Below, piece after piece: positions 1,732 through 20,841 of a stretch of DNA of 55,969 bases. Source of the DNA: Rhodoplanes elegans (GTDB lineage Bacteria > Pseudomonadota > Alphaproteobacteria > Rhizobiales > Xanthobacteraceae); NCBI RefSeq assembly GCF_016653355.1, contig NZ_NHSK01000097.1, positions 1-55,969 of the forward strand, in the 5' to 3' direction. The notes beneath the pieces are model-generated. The model was not told the origin of the DNA. It made no database searches and saw only the letters and a program-made list of their open reading frames with translations. Each line of letters begins with the position of its first letter. The first letter of the stretch is position 1. Position numbers and translations under genes: made by a program.

Positions 1732-2542
1732 CGTGTCCCTCCTTGGGTTCGATGACGGGAGACACGACGAGGGTGGGCGGGGCGAGGCCGGCGAGGCGGT
1801 CGCGCGCCCGCTGCCGCACCTCGGGATCGGGATCGTCGCGCAGCAGCGGCAGCGCCGCGGGCGCGCCGCGCTCGGCGACGATGAAGCGCACCCGCAGATC
1901 CTCGTCGTCGGCCAACGCGACGAGCTGCGACGGTTCGAGCCGCTCGGCGACCGCGATGCGCACCAGCGGGTCGAGATCGTAGAGCATGGCCGGCAGCACG
2001 TCCGGCTTCACCCGCCGCGCCACCTCGCAGCGCACCTGCGGGTCGGGATCCTGCATGGCGCCCGGCAGCACGTCCGGCGGCACATGGCGCACGGCGACGA
2101 GCCGCACGGCGTAATCTGGATCGCCCAGCATGGCGACGAGCGCCGCGCCCTCGAGGCGCTGCGCCATCACCATGCGGACCTTACGGTCGGGATCCTCGCG
2201 CAGCTTGATGACACGGGTGAGCGGCAGACGCTGCGCCACCACGGCGCGGACGTCGGGCTCCGGGTCGTCGATCAGCGCCGGCAGCAGGAACAGGCTGGCG
2301 CGCCGCGCCGCGAGGGCACGGATCTCGAAATAGGGATGGTTCAGGTACTGCTCCGCCTCGCCGGGATTGCCGGCGAAGAAGCGGTCGATGCGACGGGCGC
2401 GGCGGTCGCGGACGCAGATGCGCCCGCGGTCGCAGCGGCCCTCGGCCCGGATCTCCTCGTGCGGACAGTCGGCACAGGACACCGGATGACCGAGCCAGTC
2501 GGTCGGCTCCGGTGCGGCGGCCTGGCTGCCCGCGGCGACCAT
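1715..2542 (-). CDS. LRV-repeat protein with N-terminal [4Fe-4S] cluster motif
   Basis: Protein of 275 residues. Four cysteines near the N-terminus (C23, C26, C37, C43) match the small [4Fe-4S] domain of the leucine-rich-variant (LRV) protein described from the Azotobacter nif region. After residue 60 come several repeats of about 24 residues of the form DPDPxVRxxVAxRL, for example DPEPDVRAVVAQRL and DPDPQVRCEVARRV, which would build an alpha/3-10 solenoid. Function is unknown; the nif context suggests a role in cluster supply or redox sensing. It lies between fdxN (10 bases upstream) and nifZ (17-base overlap). Confidence 0.88.
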   Translation of the reverse strand: MVAAGSQAAAPEPTDWLGHPVSCADCPHEEIRAEGRCDRGRICVRDRRARRIDRFFAGNPGEAEQYLNHPYFEIRALAARRASLFLLPALIDDPEPDVRAVVAQRLPLTRVIKLREDPDRKVRMVMAQRLEGAALVAMLGDPDYAVRLVAVRHVPPDVLPGAMQDPDPQVRCEVARRVKPDVLPAMLYDLDPLVRIAVAERLEPSQLVALADDEDLRVRFIVAERGAPAALPLLRDDPDPEVRQRARDRLAGLAPPTLVVSPVIEPKEGHDGPRP

Positions 2543-2552
2543 GGCGCGGCGC

Positions 2553-2747
2553 TCAGGCGGCGATGCAGGTGTTGGGGACCGGGCACACGGCCGCGCACTG
2601 CGGCGCGTCGAAATGCCCCTCGCACTCGGTGCACTTCGCCGGGTCGATCACGTAGATGTCGCGCTTCATCTTGATGGCGCTGTTCGGGCACTCGAACTCG
2701 CAGGCCCCACACACGGTGCACTGCGACGCGACGATCTTCAGGGCCAT
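2553..2747 (-). CDS. fdxN: 2[4Fe-4S] ferredoxin, FdxN type, downstream of nifB
   Basis: Protein of 64 residues with two cluster motifs: C10-x2-C13-x2-C16-x3-C20 and C39-x2-C42-x8-C51-x3-C55. The extended eight-residue spacer in the second motif is typical of nif-associated bacterial ferredoxins. An AAGGAG ribosome site precedes the ATG. FdxN-type ferredoxins donate electrons to nitrogenase reductase or to NifB cofactor synthesis. Its place 30 bases after nifB fits the latter. Confidence 0.93.
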
Positions 2748-2777
2748 GGCAGTCTCTCCTTCTTCGCGACGGTGCGG

Positions 2778-4259
2778 TCAGGCGACCTGCGCCTGGACGG
2801 GCCGTCCATAACGATCGGCGTAGCAGGCCGAGATGGCGGTCTCGATGTACTCGAACGCGTAGGCGTCGGTCGCCGTGATGCCGGCGCCCTTCAGCTGCCC
2901 CTGCGGGCAGTCGCCAATCTTGGCGCACAGCACCGTGTCGACGCCCTCCAGCGTCTTCAGCACGCTGTCGAGCGTGGCGTCCTCGCCGAAGCCGCCCTGG
3001 CAGTAGGCGTCCTCGACCTTGCGATGGCCGATGAAGCGCACGCCCGCCGCCGAGGCCTCGTAGACCTGGAACTCCTTGGCGTGACCGAAATGCTGGTTGA
3101 CGCGGCCGCCGCCCTTGGTCGCGACCGCGATCAGGATGCGGGCGGCGCTGTCGGTCTCGTCGAGCACCGCGGTCGCCTCCTGCTTGGCGGCGACGTGGTC
3201 CTGGCGCTCGCGCGCCACGACCTCGCGATAGGTCGAGCGAATCGACGGGTCGTAGGCGACCTCCTCGGGGATTTGGTCGAGCGTGAACTCCTGGCCGCGG
3301 TCCTCGCCCAGGAGGCCGACCGCGTCGGCCCGGCACTGACGGCAGTGGCGCATCAGGTTGGCGCCGCCCGCGCACGCCTCCTGCAGGGCCATCAGCTCGG
3401 CGTGCTTGGGTCCGCGTTGGCCGGTGAGGCCGAAATGGGTGCCGTGCGCCGGATCGGAGATCAGCGGCATGATGTTGTGCAGGAAGGCGCCGCGCGCCTT
3501 CACGGCGGCGTTGACCTCCTTCAGGTGCTCGTCGTTGATCCCGGGGATCATCACCGAGTTGACCTTCACGAGGATGCCGCGCTCCGCCAGCATCTCGAGG
3601 CCGAGCATCTGCCGCTCGTGCAGGATCTGCGACGCGACGAGGCCGGTCCACCGCTTGTGGTCGTAGAAGATCCACGGATAGATCTTCGTCCCGATCAGGG
3701 GATCGATCATGTTGATCGTGATCGTCACGTGATCGATGTTCATGTCGACCAGCTCGTCGACATGGTCGGGCAGCGCCAGCCCGTTGGTCGAGATGCACAG
3801 CTTGATGTCGGGAATCTCTCGCGCGACCAATTCGAACGTGGCCTTGGTCTTCTTCCAGTCGTAGAGCGCGTCGCCCGGCCCGGCGATGCCGAGCACCGAG
3901 AGCTGCGGCACCTCGTTGGCGACCGTCACGACCTTGCGGAAGGCCTGGTCGGGCGTGAGCTTCTCGGAGACGACGCCGGGGCGGCTCTCGTTGGCGCAGT
4001 CGTACTTGCGGTTACAGTAGTTGCACTGGATGTTGCAGGCCGGCGCCACCGCCACATGCATGCGGGCGAAGTAGTGGTGCGCCTCCTCCGAGTAGCACGG
4101 ATGGTCCTTGATCCGCGCCCACAGCTCCGGCGACATGTCGCCCTGCCCGCCGCTCGACCCGCACGAGGAGGACTGGCAGCCCGAGGCGCCGAGGGCCTGA
4201 CGCATGGCGTCGGCCGAGGTCGTTCCGGAGAGGCTGTCGAGCGACACGAAGTTGGCCAT
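2778..4259 (-). CDS. nifB: NifB, radical SAM FeMo-cofactor precursor synthase
   Basis: Protein of 493 residues. The radical SAM cysteines are C75-x3-C79-x2-C82 within [15 protein letters not shown]. The N-terminal segment before them, including the HPCYSE region, is typical of NifB. The C-terminal part (about residue 370 onward, with [15 protein letters not shown]) is a NifX/NafY-like cofactor-binding domain. NifB fuses two [4Fe-4S] clusters with an SAM-derived carbide to give NifB-co, the 8Fe-9S-C core of FeMo-co. The ATG at 4259 has a GAGGA ribosome site. It is first in the operon, behind a -24/-12 promoter and two NifA sites. Confidence 0.98.
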
Positions 4260-14639: not shown

Positions 14640-15371
14640 CTACCCCGCCTTGCGGGTCGGCGGCGCGTCGGGCTCGCTGATGACGAGGCCGGACATCGGC
14701 TCGATCCAGGCGAGGTGGCTCACCACGCCCTTCACGCCGGGCGTGTTCTCGGCCAGCACCTTGAGGCCTTCGCCCTGCTTCGACTCGGTGATGCTGCCCC
14801 ACAACTCGACGATGCCGTCCTTGACGACGACGTCGACGAGGGCGACCGGCGCCCACGGCTGGCGGGCGATCTCGGCCATCACCCGGGTGCGGATCTCGGC
14901 GTCGCCGGCCGGCGCGTCCGGCAGGTCGCGGCTGACGCTCGCCAGCGCGTGCAGCAGGTTCGACCGGCTGACGATGCCGACGACCCGGCGGTCGCGCACC
15001 ACCGGCACGCGCTTCACCCGCTTGCGCTCCATGATCGACACGACGGCGTCGAGCCCGGCGTCCTCGTCGACCGTCACGGGCGAGCGGGTCATCACCTCCT
15101 CGACCCGCCGGCCGTGCGAGCGGACATAGTCGGTGGCGAGGTTCTGGGGGCCGACCAGGAACTCGAGCCAGCGCGGCCGCTTGCGGGCCGTGCCGGTCTC
15201 GGCGCGGCGCAGGAAGTCCCCTTCGGTGACGATCCCGACCAGCGCGCCGCCGGCATCGACCACCGGCAGCCCGCTGATGCGGTTCTCCAGCATCAGCCGG
15301 ATCGCCTCCTCGATGGAGGCTTCGGGCGCAATCGTCAGCACCCGGCTCGTCATCACGTCTCGGGCTTTCAT
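14640..15371 (-). CDS. CBS-domain pair protein with C-terminal BON domain
   Basis: Protein of 243 residues. Two CBS motifs occupy residues 1-60 (MKARDVMTSRVLTI ... GLPVVD ... GIVTEGDF) and about 90-145 (VEEVMTRSPVTV ... RVPVV ... GIVSRSNL). A BON domain follows (about 155-225, VKDGIVELWGSI). CBS pairs bind adenine nucleotides and BON domains bind membranes or lipids. Proteins of this architecture are common in Rhizobiales and are mostly uncharacterised. It appears monocistronic. Confidence 0.9.
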   Translation of the reverse strand: MKARDVMTSRVLTIAPEASIEEAIRLMLENRISGLPVVDAGGALVGIVTEGDFLRRAETGTARKRPRWLEFLVGPQNLATDYVRSHGRRVEEVMTRSPVTVDEDAGLDAVVSIMERKRVKRVPVVRDRRVVGIVSRSNLLHALASVSRDLPDAPAGDAEIRTRVMAEIARQPWAPVALVDVVVKDGIVELWGSITESKQGEGLKVLAENTPGVKGVVSHLAWIEPMSGLVISEPDAPPTRKAG

Positions 15372-15658
15372 CGCGGCATCTCCTGCTCGGATCGCTCCGG
15401 TGCCGCACCGCCCGCCCCTCGGCGGCGCACCTCGCCGCGCTCCGCGGCCGCACCGTGCTCCGAGCCGGCCGAGTATCGGCCCGCCTCAGGGAGGCGGCAA
15501 TCGAAATCGGCCGCACCACGCCGGCACTGATGGCCCATAAGCAACACTGCGTAAGGGCTCCATGACAAGGGTTCTGTAAAGCCAAGGATGTTGCGTCCGG
15601 CGGGTGTGTGCTATGCGGTAGATTAGGAGCTGTTCGGTCCGGAGCGGGGGAGAACGAC

Positions 15659-16408
15659 ATGGAGTCAGCGGTCGCGACACAGGCCGTTTCGGGCGGCACC
15701 CAGGCCGGGATGCCGCATCGCGAGGCGGCCTCGGCGCCGGCGATTCCGTCGTATCTCGACGTGCATTACTGGTGGGCCTATGTGCACCCGAACGCCGTCA
15801 AGGTGTTCGAGCGGCAGTGGCTCGCCAACCTGATCCTGTGGGGCAACTACGCCCGCCTGCGCGACGCCGCGCTCGATCTGCTGGGCGACGTCCTGCCCGG
15901 CCGCACCCTGCAGGTCGCCTGCGCCTATGGCGACCTCACGCCGCACCTGGTCGAGCGGGTGAGTGCCGGCCAGGGCGCGGTCGACATCGTCGACGTGCTG
16001 CCCGTGCAGCTCGACAATCTGCGCCGCAAGCTCGCCGCCGACGCGCCGGCGCGGCTCCTGGAGACCGATTCGTCGGCCCTGCCGCTGCCCGACGCGAGCT
16101 ACGACCGCGTGCTCTTGTTCTTCCTGCTGCACGAGCAGCCGGAGAGCTGGCGCCGCCGCACGCTGGCCGAGGCGGTGCGGGTGCTGAAGCCGGGCGGCCG
16201 CCTCGTCATCGTCGATTACGCGAAGCCGCACTGGTGGAACCCGTTGCGCTACGTATTCGCACCGGTGCTGGCCGCGCTGGAACCGTTTGCGCTCGATCTC
16301 TGGCGCGAGGACGTCTCGGGCTGGATGCCGGCCCTGCCGCCCGACCGGAAAATCGAGCGGCGCTCGTATTTTGGTGGACTTTATCAGGCGCTGGTCGTCG
16401 ATCGCTGA
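15659..16408 (+). CDS. rquA: RquA-type rhodoquinone biosynthesis protein, copy 1
   Basis: Protein of 249 residues. After a variable N-terminus of about 30 residues comes SYLDVHYWWAYVHPNAV, then ILWGNYARLRDAAL, the altered motif I LQVACAYGDLTPHL (84-97) in place of the usual GxGxG, and FFLLHEQPESWRRRT. These match my recollection of RquA from Rhodospirillum rubrum, a class I methyltransferase-fold enzyme that converts ubiquinone to rhodoquinone with SAM as amino donor. A GGGGGAG ribosome site precedes the ATG. Rhodoquinone serves fumarate reduction and redox balance without oxygen. The gene is followed 148 bases on by a paralogue. Confidence 0.82.
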   Translation: MESAVATQAVSGGTQAGMPHREAASAPAIPSYLDVHYWWAYVHPNAVKVFERQWLANLILWGNYARLRDAALDLLGDVLPGRTLQVACAYGDLTPHLVERVSAGQGAVDIVDVLPVQLDNLRRKLAADAPARLLETDSSALPLPDASYDRVLLFFLLHEQPESWRRRTLAEAVRVLKPGGRLVIVDYAKPHWWNPLRYVFAPVLAALEPFALDLWREDVSGWMPALPPDRKIERRSYFGGLYQALVVDR

Positions 16409-16456
16409 CCATCGTTGCGCCGCCCGCGCATGGCGGACGTGCCCGGAGTTTCAGTC

Positions 16457-16470
16457 TTGCGTTTTCTCAA
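16457..16470 (+). promoter_or_regulatory. Weak FNR/FixK-like box upstream of rquA copy 2
   Basis: TTGCGTTTTCTCAA keeps the TTG and CAA ends of TTGAT-N4-ATCAA, but both inner half-site bases differ. It lies 86 bases before the copy 2 start. Such a match can arise by chance. Confidence 0.25.
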
Positions 16471-16556
16471 GGTGTTGCACGGGGGCCAATGCGATGGTCG
16501 ATCCCAGGGGGCATGAACTCTTGCGGGATCCCCCACCCGCTTCGAGGTCACTACAC

Positions 16557-17309
16557 ATGCAGAGTGCTGCAGTTCGATCGTCGACTTCGGTGCGAATCGA
16601 GGCCGGCTCGCCGGTGGACAGTGCGAAAGCTCCCGTCGTCTCCATTCCTTCTTATCTCGAGAAGCATTACTGGTGGGCCTATATTCACCCGAACGCGATC
16701 CGTTTCTTCGACCACCAGCCGATCATCAACTTCATCCTGTGGGGCAACTACGCCAAGCTGCGGAACGCCGCGCTCGCCGAGATGGGCGACGAGCTTCCCG
16801 GCCAGACCCTGCAGGTGGCCTGCGCCTATGGTGATCTGACGCCGCATCTCGCCGATCGCGTCGCCGCCGGCGGGGGCCGGCTCGACGTCATCGACATCGT
16901 GCCGGCGCAGCTGCGCAACGTGCGCCGCAAGCTGAAGGCCGACGCGCCGGTCCGCCTCCTCAACATGGATTCGGCCGACCTGAACTTCCCGGATGCGAGC
17001 TACGACCGCGCCATCGTCTACCTGCTGTTCCACGAGCAGCCGGTCGAGCATCGCGAGAAGACGCTGGCCGAGATCTTCCGGGTGGTGAAGCCGGGCGGCA
17101 AGGTGGTCATCGTCGACTACGCCAAGCCCGACTGGTGGCACCCGTGGCGCTACTGGTTCAAGCCGGTGCTCGGCTATCTGGAGCCGTTCGCGCTCGACCT
17201 GTGGAAGCACAAGCTGACCACCTGGATGCCGGCGCCCTGGTCGAAGACCGAGTGGCCGCGCCAGTCCTACTTCGGCGGCCTGTACCAGAAGATCGTGATC
17301 ACGCGCTGA
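16557..17309 (+). CDS. rquA: RquA-type rhodoquinone biosynthesis protein, copy 2
   Basis: Protein of 250 residues. From YWWAYIHPNAI onward it aligns without gaps to copy 1 across the core. It shares ILWGNYAKLR, the identical LQVACAYGDLTPHL, VIVDYAKP and the SYFGGLYQ end. Differences cluster in FFDHQPIINF, DIVPAQLRN and YLLFHEQPVEHREK. The start at 16557 has a GAGG site; an upstream ATG at 16494 is possible but lacks similarity. The substitutions suggest an old duplication with both copies under selection. Which copy makes rhodoquinone, or whether both do, cannot be told here. Confidence 0.8.
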   Translation: MQSAAVRSSTSVRIEAGSPVDSAKAPVVSIPSYLEKHYWWAYIHPNAIRFFDHQPIINFILWGNYAKLRNAALAEMGDELPGQTLQVACAYGDLTPHLADRVAAGGGRLDVIDIVPAQLRNVRRKLKADAPVRLLNMDSADLNFPDASYDRAIVYLLFHEQPVEHREKTLAEIFRVVKPGGKVVIVDYAKPDWWHPWRYWFKPVLGYLEPFALDLWKHKLTTWMPAPWSKTEWPRQSYFGGLYQKIVITR

Positions 17310-18872: not shown

Positions 18873-20678
18873 TCACCGGCCGGCCGCGTAGCCCTGCATG
18901 CCGCGCGGATTGGCGGCGGCGCGGCGGCGCCAGCCGTCGCGCGAGGCCGCGGTGAGGCGGCCTTCGGACCACGCCGGCCCGACCTCGACGACATGGCCGC
19001 GGGCGGCGAGATCGCGCCGCACCTCCTCGGACACCCGCTCCTCGATCACGAGGACGCCGGGACGCGCGGTGCGCGGCCAGAACGAGATCGGGAAGTGCTC
19101 CGAGTGCCAGGCCGGCGCGTCGATCGATTCCTGCAGGTTCAGCCCGGCATGGACGTGGCGCAGGAAGAGCTGCAGGTTCCACTGGTCCTGCTGATCGCCG
19201 CCCGGCGTGCCCCACGCCAGATAGGGCTCGCCGTCGCGCAGCGCCAGCGTCGGCGACAGCGTGGTGCGGGGCCGCTTCCCGGGCGCGAGCGCCGCCGGGT
19301 GCCCCTCCTCCAGCCAGAACATCTGGGCGCGCGTGCCGAGGCAGAAGCCGAGCTCCGGGATGATCGGCGACGACTGCAGCCAGCCGCCCGACGGCGTCGC
19401 CGAGATCATGTTGCCGTCGCGATCGATGATGTCGAAATGCACCGTGTCGCCGCGCACCTCGCCGGGCTTCGCCGCGATCTTGCCGACCGTCGGCTCGCCG
19501 GCGCCGGCCGCGACCGGCACCTCGCCGGCGCGGCGCAGCTTCACGTCGCCGCCGAAGCCTTCGACCGAGCCGGGCCGCAGCTCCAGCGACGCCGCGTCGG
19601 TGACGAGCTTGCGGCGCGCGTCGTTGTAGGCGTCGGACAGCAGCACATCCATCGGCACCTTCACGACGTCCGGATCGCCGTAGAACTTCTCGCGGTCCGC
19701 ATAGGCGAGCTTGGCGCATTCCACGACGGTGTGGATGAACTCCGCCCCGGCGACGTCGAGCCCGTCGAGCGCGAAGCCCTTCAGGAGCGCGAGCTGCTGG
19801 AGCAGCACCGGCCCCTGCGACCACGGCCCCGCCTTGCACACCGTGTAGCGCCCGTAGTCGTAGGTGAGCGGCGCCTCGATGCGCGGCTTCCAGGTCGCCA
19901 TGTCGTGGCCGGTGAGGATGCCGCGATGGGCCTCGCCGGACGTGTCCATCACCTTCTGGGTGCGGCAGAAGCGATCGATCGCGTCGGCGACGAATCCCTC
20001 CGACCACGCTTTCCGGGCCCGCGCGATCTCCTGCTCACGTCCGCCACCGCCGCTTTCCGCCTCGCGCAGGATGCGCGCATAGGTGTCGGCAAGGCCGCGA
20101 TTCACGAACAGGCTGCCGGTCTCCGGCACGGTGCCGCCGGGGAGCCAGACGGCGGCCGAGGTCGGCCAGTGCTGGCGGAACAGCGTCTCAACCGAGCGGA
20201 TGGTCGCATGGGCGCGCTCGACCAGCGGGTGGCCCTCGCGGGCGTAATAGATGGCGGGCGCGAGCACGTCGGCGGGACGCAGCGTGCCGTATTCGGCGAG
20301 CAGCATCATCCAGGTCTCGAACGTGCCCGGCACGCAGGCGGCCAAAAGCCCGGTGCCCGGCACCATGTCGAGGCCGAGGCCGCGGTAGTAGCGGATGGTG
20401 GCGCCGGCCGGGGCCGGCCCCTGGCCGCAGATCACCTCCGGGCGCCCCTTGCGCACGTCGTAGAGCACGATCGGCACGTCGCCGCCGGCGCCGTTGAGAT
20501 GCGGCTCCACCACCTGCAACGTGAAGGCGGTGGCGACCGCCGCGTCGAACGCGTTGCCGCCCTTCTCCAGGATCGACATGCCGACCGCGGTCGCGATCCA
20601 GTGCGTGGAGGTGACGACGCCGAACGAGCCTTCGATCTCGGGGCGGGTGGTGAACGGGTTTGGATTGACGTTGCTCAT
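18873..20678 (-). CDS. Gamma-glutamyltransferase family protein
   Basis: Protein of 601 residues from the ATG at 20678; an ATG at 20711 would add 11. It has the GGT N-terminal pattern (GGNAFDAAVATAFTLQVVEPH) and the autoprocessing and nucleophile threonine T412 in GDTVHFDIIDRDGN. This gives a large subunit of about 411 residues and a small one of 190. The PGGDQQDQW segment near the C-terminus is the conserved GGxxI-type region. No signal peptide is evident, unlike classical periplasmic Ggt, so it may act in the cytoplasm on a gamma-glutamyl or related amide. Confidence 0.9.
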   Translation of the reverse strand: MSNVNPNPFTTRPEIEGSFGVVTSTHWIATAVGMSILEKGGNAFDAAVATAFTLQVVEPHLNGAGGDVPIVLYDVRKGRPEVICGQGPAPAGATIRYYRGLGLDMVPGTGLLAACVPGTFETWMMLLAEYGTLRPADVLAPAIYYAREGHPLVERAHATIRSVETLFRQHWPTSAAVWLPGGTVPETGSLFVNRGLADTYARILREAESGGGGREQEIARARKAWSEGFVADAIDRFCRTQKVMDTSGEAHRGILTGHDMATWKPRIEAPLTYDYGRYTVCKAGPWSQGPVLLQQLALLKGFALDGLDVAGAEFIHTVVECAKLAYADREKFYGDPDVVKVPMDVLLSDAYNDARRKLVTDAASLELRPGSVEGFGGDVKLRRAGEVPVAAGAGEPTVGKIAAKPGEVRGDTVHFDIIDRDGNMISATPSGGWLQSSPIIPELGFCLGTRAQMFWLEEGHPAALAPGKRPRTTLSPTLALRDGEPYLAWGTPGGDQQDQWNLQLFLRHVHAGLNLQESIDAPAWHSEHFPISFWPRTARPGVLVIEERVSEEVRRDLAARGHVVEVGPAWSEGRLTAASRDGWRRRAAANPRGMQGYAAGR

Positions 20679-20751
20679 TACCGTTTCGGGGTAGGAACGC
20701 GGGGCGGCCATTCGGCGGTCCGACGCCGGCTTTGTCAACGGACCCGAAACG

Positions 20752-20779
20752 AAAAAAGCGGCCGGTTTGGCCGGCCGCT
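20752..20779 (-). terminator. Rho-independent terminator of the chemoreceptor gene
   Basis: On the minus strand an eight-base GC stem (20758-20765 pairing with 20771-20778) with a five-base loop is followed by six T residues (20757-20752). It lies 63 bases after the chemoreceptor stop. Confidence 0.88.
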
Positions 20780-20841
20780 CCTCGATCTCCTGCGCCACGG
20801 CAGGACCCGGGCACGCCCGCGCCGCCGGGGACCGTCCCGCC

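Follow-up and report, generated by a model that had tools for sequence, protein, structure and literature searches.

A stretch of 55,969 nucleotides from Rhodoplanes elegans (hereafter, the window) was found to carry two genes of the RquA family in tandem. The analysis established the family membership of both copies, the conservation of the pair and of its place, the pattern of residue changes in the second copy (B), the lower divergence of B compared to that of the first copy (A), and the presence of a FixK/FNR-type box. The explanation that we favour, and to which we give about an even chance of being correct, is that the tandem pair is old and consists of true RquA enzymes between which the work would be divided (subfunctionalised), with A as the canonical enzyme and B as a variant regulated by low oxygen.

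RquA, first found in Rhodospirillum rubrum, forms rhodoquinone from ubiquinone with SAM and Mn2+. The transfer of the amino group from SAM to ubiquinone is an unusual reaction, and its product, rhodoquinone, is a low-oxygen electron carrier. The two genes and the conserved genes that flank them are the following.

15659 to 16408, + strand: rquA copy A, from ATG to stop, canonical RquA of 249 aa (NF038261 score of 284.7 bits, cut-off 175; 0 of 73 family-conserved columns departing)
16557 to 17309, + strand: rquA copy B, from ATG to stop, variant RquA of 250 aa (NF038261 score of 293.6 bits; the same 9 of 73 conserved columns departing in 5 of 5 species; AlphaFold2 mean pLDDT 90.4)
14640 to 15371, - strand: CBS-BON protein (Pfam), conserved left neighbour, on this side of the pair in all four other Rhodoplanes loci as well
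18873 to 20798, - strand: gamma-glutamyltranspeptidase (Pfam), conserved right-hand gene, likewise on this side of the pair in all four other Rhodoplanes loci

The tandem rquA pair

Both open reading frames are intact, and 148 bases separate copy A from copy B. Their scores are well over the cut-off of the NCBIfam equivalog model for RquA (NF038261), while those obtained with TIGR01934 (UbiE/MenG; cut-off, 158.35 bits) are far below it (47.3 bits for A and 53.0 bits for B). One UbiE gene over the latter cut-off (262.7 bits) is present in the genome, separate from the pair. In a quick tree of 101 rows, with an outgroup made up of the UbiE of this genome and five further methyltransferases, A and B were placed among the 95 RquA rows, the branch leading to these being 3.04 long with a support of 87; the UbiE row formed a very long branch. 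On the basis of the scores, the tree placement and the separate genomic UbiE, a generic UbiE-like identity was rejected. Judged by their sequences, both copies are true RquA family members and not UbiE; the UbiE/Coq5 quinone C-methyltransferases differ in motif I and have RN (UbiE) where RquA has HE. An earlier note on this DNA had described two adjacent genes with the RquA pattern, an identical motif and a core aligned without gaps, and had asked whether both would fall inside the RquA clade rather than with UbiE-like enzymes. The description was confirmed, and both copies did so.

Copies A and B are 60% identical overall. From IPSYL to the C-terminus they align without gaps, with 139 of 221 residues identical; with the core DNA just 70% identical, no recent gene conversion across it was seen. 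The exact string LQVACAYGDLTPHL is shared by both copies. Of the 86 aligned RquA rows, 7 have it, all of them from Rhodoplanes pairs (five B copies and two A copies), and all of the 76 other rows lack it. A looser pattern, LQ[VI]AC[AV]YG[DN]L, was present in 51 of the 86 rows, so that much of the motif is family consensus. The motif I criteria given for RquA in the available text of PMC7813818 are Gln in place of Asp and Val in place of Gly. Gln was found in A and B of all five species and in 146 of 148 other rows. At the position of Val both window copies have Ala, as do 42 of the 148 other rows (98 have Val), and thus Val is no defining mark of the bacterial RquA rows compared here.

Four surveys with the RquA cut-off yielded 11 of 391 genomes over it in the family, 15 of 397 in the order, 23 of 385 in the class and 61 of 398 in the phylum. 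Once repeats were removed by hand, 105 genomes remained. A single copy over the cut-off was found in 97 of them, a tandem pair in 6 and two copies split across contigs in 2; one of the single-copy genomes (G1323) also holds a second RquA under the cut-off. The view that RquA normally occurs as a single gene therefore agreed with the surveys, where one copy is the rule, but not with Rhodoplanes, where the pair is the norm. The tandem-pair genomes are five of the window's genus (G000, G009, G053, G079 and G100) and one of another genus (G037). The pair was found in five of the six genus members searched, the sixth (G133, 58% complete) showing one A-type copy; this has the same sequence as locus L044, and no second copy was found in the 1239 bases after L044. 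Of 179 confirmed named loci the best 80 were compared, and four of these have a tandem pair in the fetched flanks, some of which end at contig ends; the four are the Rhodoplanes loci listed next. The identity of copy B to its nearest named loci is 94% for R. tepidamans DSM 9987, 91% for a Rhodoplanes MAG, 90% for R. serenus DSM 18633 and 81% for 'Rhodovulum sp. PH10'. The rquA sequences of the last record (L040, NZ_AKZI01000008.1) are those of G009 over the ends compared, and since G009 is placed in the window's own genus, the name 'Rhodovulum' looks wrong.

According to the available text of Stairs 2018 (PMC5953543), rquA is often located near respiratory complex genes. No respiratory complex subunit was found with Pfam among 20 chosen ORFs of the window (positions 6772-55484), 4 of which had no family.

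A careful tree, built from 66 rows, grouped the B copies in one clade (100/100) with a stem of 0.51 and tips of 0.026 to 0.20, and the A copies in another together with the G133 copy (97/92). The best trees joined B with locus L042 rather than with A, although with weak support (93 in the quick tree and 84/52 in the careful one), a placement that would suit the acquisition of B from another lineage and its landing beside A. On the other side, holding A, B and L044 as one clade cost 2.5 log units (p-AU 0.457) and a clade of A and B without L044 cost 7.4 log units (p-AU 0.228), neither of which was rejected, and the sharing of exact LQVACAYGDLTPHL by B and A copies also argues against a foreign B. 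Such an origin, which would be compatible with any reading of function, is possible but on balance doubtful. Trees joining B with the divergent G037 copy (p-AU 0.421) or the two G037 copies with each other (p-AU 0.434) were not rejected.

Both copies lie in one deep RquA group, and a mix of two deep groups in one genome was therefore rejected for this pair. As far as the trees show, the pair thus leaves unbroken the rule stated in the available part of Stairs 2018 (PMC5953543) that none of 182 organisms has both RquA groups; the R. rubrum RquA lay outside the rows, and the deep groups are therefore not named here as A or B of that study. Genomes G396 (L120 and L132) and G821 (L143 and L162) each have two over-cut-off RquA copies on separate contigs, and the four copies all belong to the other deep group. 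In the Burkholderiales MAG SFB_649D_50_9, two RquA loci (L091 and L117) lie on two contigs, which could reflect two genes or a mixed bin. At positions 1229-1953 of L131 (G482), the rquA match is spread over two overlapping reading frames, and the gene therefore looks frameshifted.

Residue changes specific to copy B

A set of 73 family-conserved columns was defined as those at least 90% conserved in 76 other RquA rows of the same deep group. At these columns, the A copies of the five species depart 0, 0, 1, 1 and 0 times, and the B copies 9, 9, 9, 11 and 9 times. Window copy A keeps all 73 columns, and window copy B keeps 64, His159 and Glu160 included. Nine columns depart in all five B copies (48, 52, 53, 55, 56, 122, 155, 156 and 158); eight of them hold one identical residue across species, and column 122 is Val or Thr. 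The departures are clustered at residues 48-56 and 155-158 (permutation p 0.015), which bears out the claim that the differences between the copies cluster; the example given with that claim, ERQWLANL against DHQPIINF, is indeed present and coincides in part with one of the two clusters. The corresponding segments of B are the following.

16698 to 16730, + strand: B segment 1, residues 48-58, IRFFDHQPIIN (consensus of the same group, FERQWLVN), in the N-terminal helices of the model
17019 to 17030, + strand: B segment 2, residues 155-158, YLLF versus FFLL in the family, adjoining His159-Glu160

In a larger comparison covering 114 other rows and 67 columns, the median number of departures was 1 and the 90th percentile was 4, with 7 to 9 in the B copies; four of the 114 rows (L161, L148, L149 and L112) show at least 9. 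At the columns at least 85% conserved in 148 other RquA rows, A departs, by majority, at none and B at F156Y, F157L and L159F (a table numbering equal to protein numbering plus 1). The FFLLHE stretch, conserved in these rows, is intact in A; in B it reads YLLFHE, which keeps L157, H159 and E160 and has three flanking positions changed. The earlier note lacked this exchange, which we judge the more telling change of B, and also lacked the intergenic box described below. Of 158 RquA rows, only the five B copies combine L156 with F158 and the remaining 153 lack the combination, F156 and L158 being nearly fixed across RquA rows. For its part, segment 1 has residues (D, H, P and I) that occur singly or jointly in other RquA rows, with D52 in 32 of the 34 rows of the other deep group, so that the DHQPIINF segment alone marks no new function. 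Locus L112 (5956-6690) has DHLPIVN, resembling copy B, and DHQPIIN is found in L161 (1450-2169), a distant homologue that scores below the RquA cut-off and has a very long branch.

Between species, B is 81-94% identical and A 68-86%. NG86 estimates were lower for B in 10 of 10 species pairs, with means of 0.078 versus 0.173 for dN, 0.17 versus 0.30 for dN/dS and 0.45 versus 0.58 for dS; these pairs share species and are thus not independent, and NG86 dS is probably saturated. The comparison rests on NG86 because YN00 gave no estimate for 6 of the 10 A pairs and for 4 of the 10 B pairs. Since dS was also lower, B is possibly slower in general, which would explain part of its lower dN. Pseudogene status of either copy was rejected, both frames being open and each of the ten species pairs having NG86 dN below dS. 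A copy that serves its own role would be expected to show such a course, remodelling first and strong conservation afterwards.

AlphaFold2 predicted the same fold for both copies (pLDDT of 89.4 for A), with residues 52-56 located where two N-terminal helices join and residues 155-158 at a strand end and in the following loop. Profile alignment placed VYLLFHEQP of B opposite IAFGIRNVP of UbiE, so HE aligns with UbiE's RN, the R of which we take to be Arg201 of Coq5. Yeast Coq5 was among the closest solved folds in the matches listed by a structure search with the B model. In the available text on Coq5 (PMC5289526), Arg201 is the proposed general base and an N-terminal helix closes the cavity. 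Given the alignment, the Coq5 cavity and the placement of both segments in the model, contact of the B-specific segments with the quinone is plausible. No RquA was among the matches listed by the structure search, and a profile search of solved structures listed none; the RquA active site has thus not yet been seen.

The L156/F158 exchange by the active-site HE, together with the DHQPII segment, could mean that B is neofunctionalised, with a different quinone, a different redox state or an obligate partnership with A as the result; we regard this as unlikely. The exchange, absent from all the other rows and adjoining the HE aligned with RN, would also fit a B with a changed reaction or substrate, the same SAM chemistry then acting on a ubiquinone precursor or another benzoquinone, and so would the clustering of the departures and the good conservation of B afterwards. 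However, B outscores A on the RquA model, the segment-1 residues are found in other RquA rows, and no menaquinone pathway was found, with no MenD over the cut-off in the genome (four weaker matches) and no match to PF02621 (futalosine pathway). Menaquinone as a second substrate is therefore unlikely, the suggestion of a second quinone substrate of this kind went unsupported, and a changed reaction appears distinctly unlikely.

The box upstream of copy B

The spacer between the genes and the region preceding copy A contain the following elements.

16409 to 16556, + strand: intergenic spacer, conserved in five species (DNA alignment; mean column identity of 83%)
16457 to 16470, + strand: FixK/FNR-type box TTGCGTTTTCTCAA, full match to TTG(A/C)-N6-(T/G)CAA, unique in the 56 kb window, with half-sites that do not vary among the five species
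16490 to 16498, + strand: possible extended -10, TGCGATGGT, invariant in 5 of 5 species, a weak sigma-70 -10 match absent from the promoter scan
16544 to 16547, + strand: GAGG, likely ribosome-binding site of copy B, from its sequence, invariant in 5 of 5 species
15606 to 15617, + strand: GTGTGCTATGCG, conserved element before copy A that may be its -10 region, identical in all five species and absent from the promoter scan

The box was found in the A-B spacer of all five species, and none was found upstream of their A copies (about 310 to 400 bases searched). The eight half-site bases of TTGCGTTTTCTCAA are invariant in the five species, and three of the six central bases vary. The box fits fully the FixK2 consensus, TTG(A/C)-N6-(T/G)CAA, given for Bradyrhizobium diazoefficiens promoters in the available texts of PMC5582078 and PMC9104804. 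The family label of Bradyrhizobium loci is also that of the window's genome. The FixK2 system differs in that the FixK-like protein found here is under the FixK cut-off: of the ten Crp-type regulators over their cut-off in the genome, the one nearest to FixK reached 231.5 bits, with a FixK cut-off of 300.

By chance, 0.93 consensus matches would be expected in the whole window on both strands, and 1 was observed. The count alone thus proves nothing, and the case rests on place and conservation, the box having been seen first and tested afterwards. Box matches were present upstream of rquA in 10 of 76 regions from other named loci, a set that includes related genomes and leaves out 8 rows from four paired loci (14 of 84 with them); shuffles averaged 1.3, and none of 200 reached 10. 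In control stretches from the same loci, mostly not upstream regions, 52 of 3046 had a match. Thus, boxes recur at rquA, and in Rhodoplanes they do so at B. Two adjacent U32-family genes of the genome match UbiU and UbiV best in the parts tested, under the cut-offs since partial sequences were given; UbiU and UbiV belong to the oxygen-independent ubiquinone pathway. The stretches fetched at ubiU and ubiV, which are expected to be low-oxygen genes, contained no such box, and this genome therefore offers no positive control for it.

The other tandem pair, that of G037 (L013; another genus of the family), lies at 1501-2229 and 2469-3221 on the - strand. Its canonical copy, the 3' one, departs at none of 67 columns, and its divergent copy, the 5' one, at 7 (L158M included). 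A box, TTGAGACGGATCAA, lies upstream of the divergent copy, about 120 bases from the matched start, and between the genes none was found, the stretches searched being unequal (439 bases before the divergent copy and 240 between the genes). This box precedes both genes and may drive both, and as 10 of 76 rquA upstream regions have one, a single box in G037 is weak evidence. The G037 pair may have arisen independently of the Rhodoplanes pairs.

If TGCGATGGT acted as the -10, transcription would start approximately 41 bases past the box centre. The promoter scan found no sigma-70 promoter upstream of the A or B start, and transcription of B by read-through from A is possible. In the leader of B (window positions 16507-16535), a G-run and a C-run conserved in five species, one of them shorter by one base, could form a hairpin; no compensatory changes were found across the five species, and no known RNA element was found in the window at gathering thresholds.

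A and B are probably under different control, and with a FixK/FNR-type box in what would be its own promoter, B should switch on at low oxygen. The idea of expression under different oxygen conditions gained evidence from the predicted box, which precedes only B in all five species; the induction of B itself would follow from that box. The conserved, box-bearing spacer would be needless in a strict 1:1 complex, and this argues against a heterodimeric RquA in which B would modify or activate A. B also looks catalytic, since it keeps most of the conserved columns with His159 and Glu160, and the great majority of over-cut-off genomes (97 of 105) have one copy over the cut-off. The heterodimer would agree with the adjacent, co-stranded genes of each tandem pair seen and with the elution of purified RquA, in detergent, as a probable homodimer (PMC9814641, available text); even so, we consider it improbable.

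Possible roles of the two copies

Under the favoured division of work, copy A would be the canonical enzyme, transcribed without a FixK/FNR-type box. The active-site surroundings of B would have been remodelled once, before the sampled species split, and strongly conserved thereafter, and B would have its own promoter, with the box between the genes. Each copy would move the SAM amino group onto ubiquinone to give rhodoquinone, with A providing the baseline supply and B a low-oxygen supply tuned to that state. Plain dosage, in which the copies would do the same job and the changes of B would be neutral drift, accords with two intact genes, dN below dS in each pair and the same predicted fold, but is quite improbable given the same nine clustered columns departing in all five species, the lower dN/dS of B and the box before one copy only.

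For R. tepidamans TUT3520, whose species has the pair, the quinones reported are Q-10 and 'R-10' (as printed); those of R. elegans are Q-10 and RQ-10 (PMC12470966, Table 1, in the text available). Rhodoplanes is also credited with rhodoquinone in the accessible portion of PMC10715153. A second fumarate reductase was rejected, just one SdhA/FrdA-type gene being present in the genome (E up to 1e-30).

With known RquA, both copies share an equivalog score, the Gln of motif I and the conserved columns (73 of 73 in A and 64 of 73 in B). What differs here is the presence of two tandem copies, one of which, B, has YLLFHE and FDHQPIIN (FFLLHE and FERQWLVN in the family) and a FixK-type box of its own. 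The RquA family and its reaction are already known, and so are diverged multiple rquA genes in heterotrich ciliates (Spirostomum, Blepharisma and Stentor), which have two or three diverged RquA per organism, likewise typed by conserved residues (PMC7813818). The ciliate genes differ in being eukaryotic and in having been obtained from transcriptomes and genomes, and neither tandem order nor an oxygen-type promoter is described for them in the text available. Among the literature matches listed, no tandem rquA in a bacterium was found, nor a bacterial pair of which one member is an active-site variant preceded by a FixK-type box.

If B were neofunctional, Rhodoplanes would have a two-enzyme, oxygen-staged quinone amination, of which the G037 pair would be a second case. 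The pair occurs in a genus reported to make rhodoquinone, and as a natural pair differing at a few nearly fixed positions beside the likely active site, it offers a ready-made experiment on those positions. Likewise, the box before one copy only would allow a direct test of how the rhodoquinone supply is matched to oxygen.
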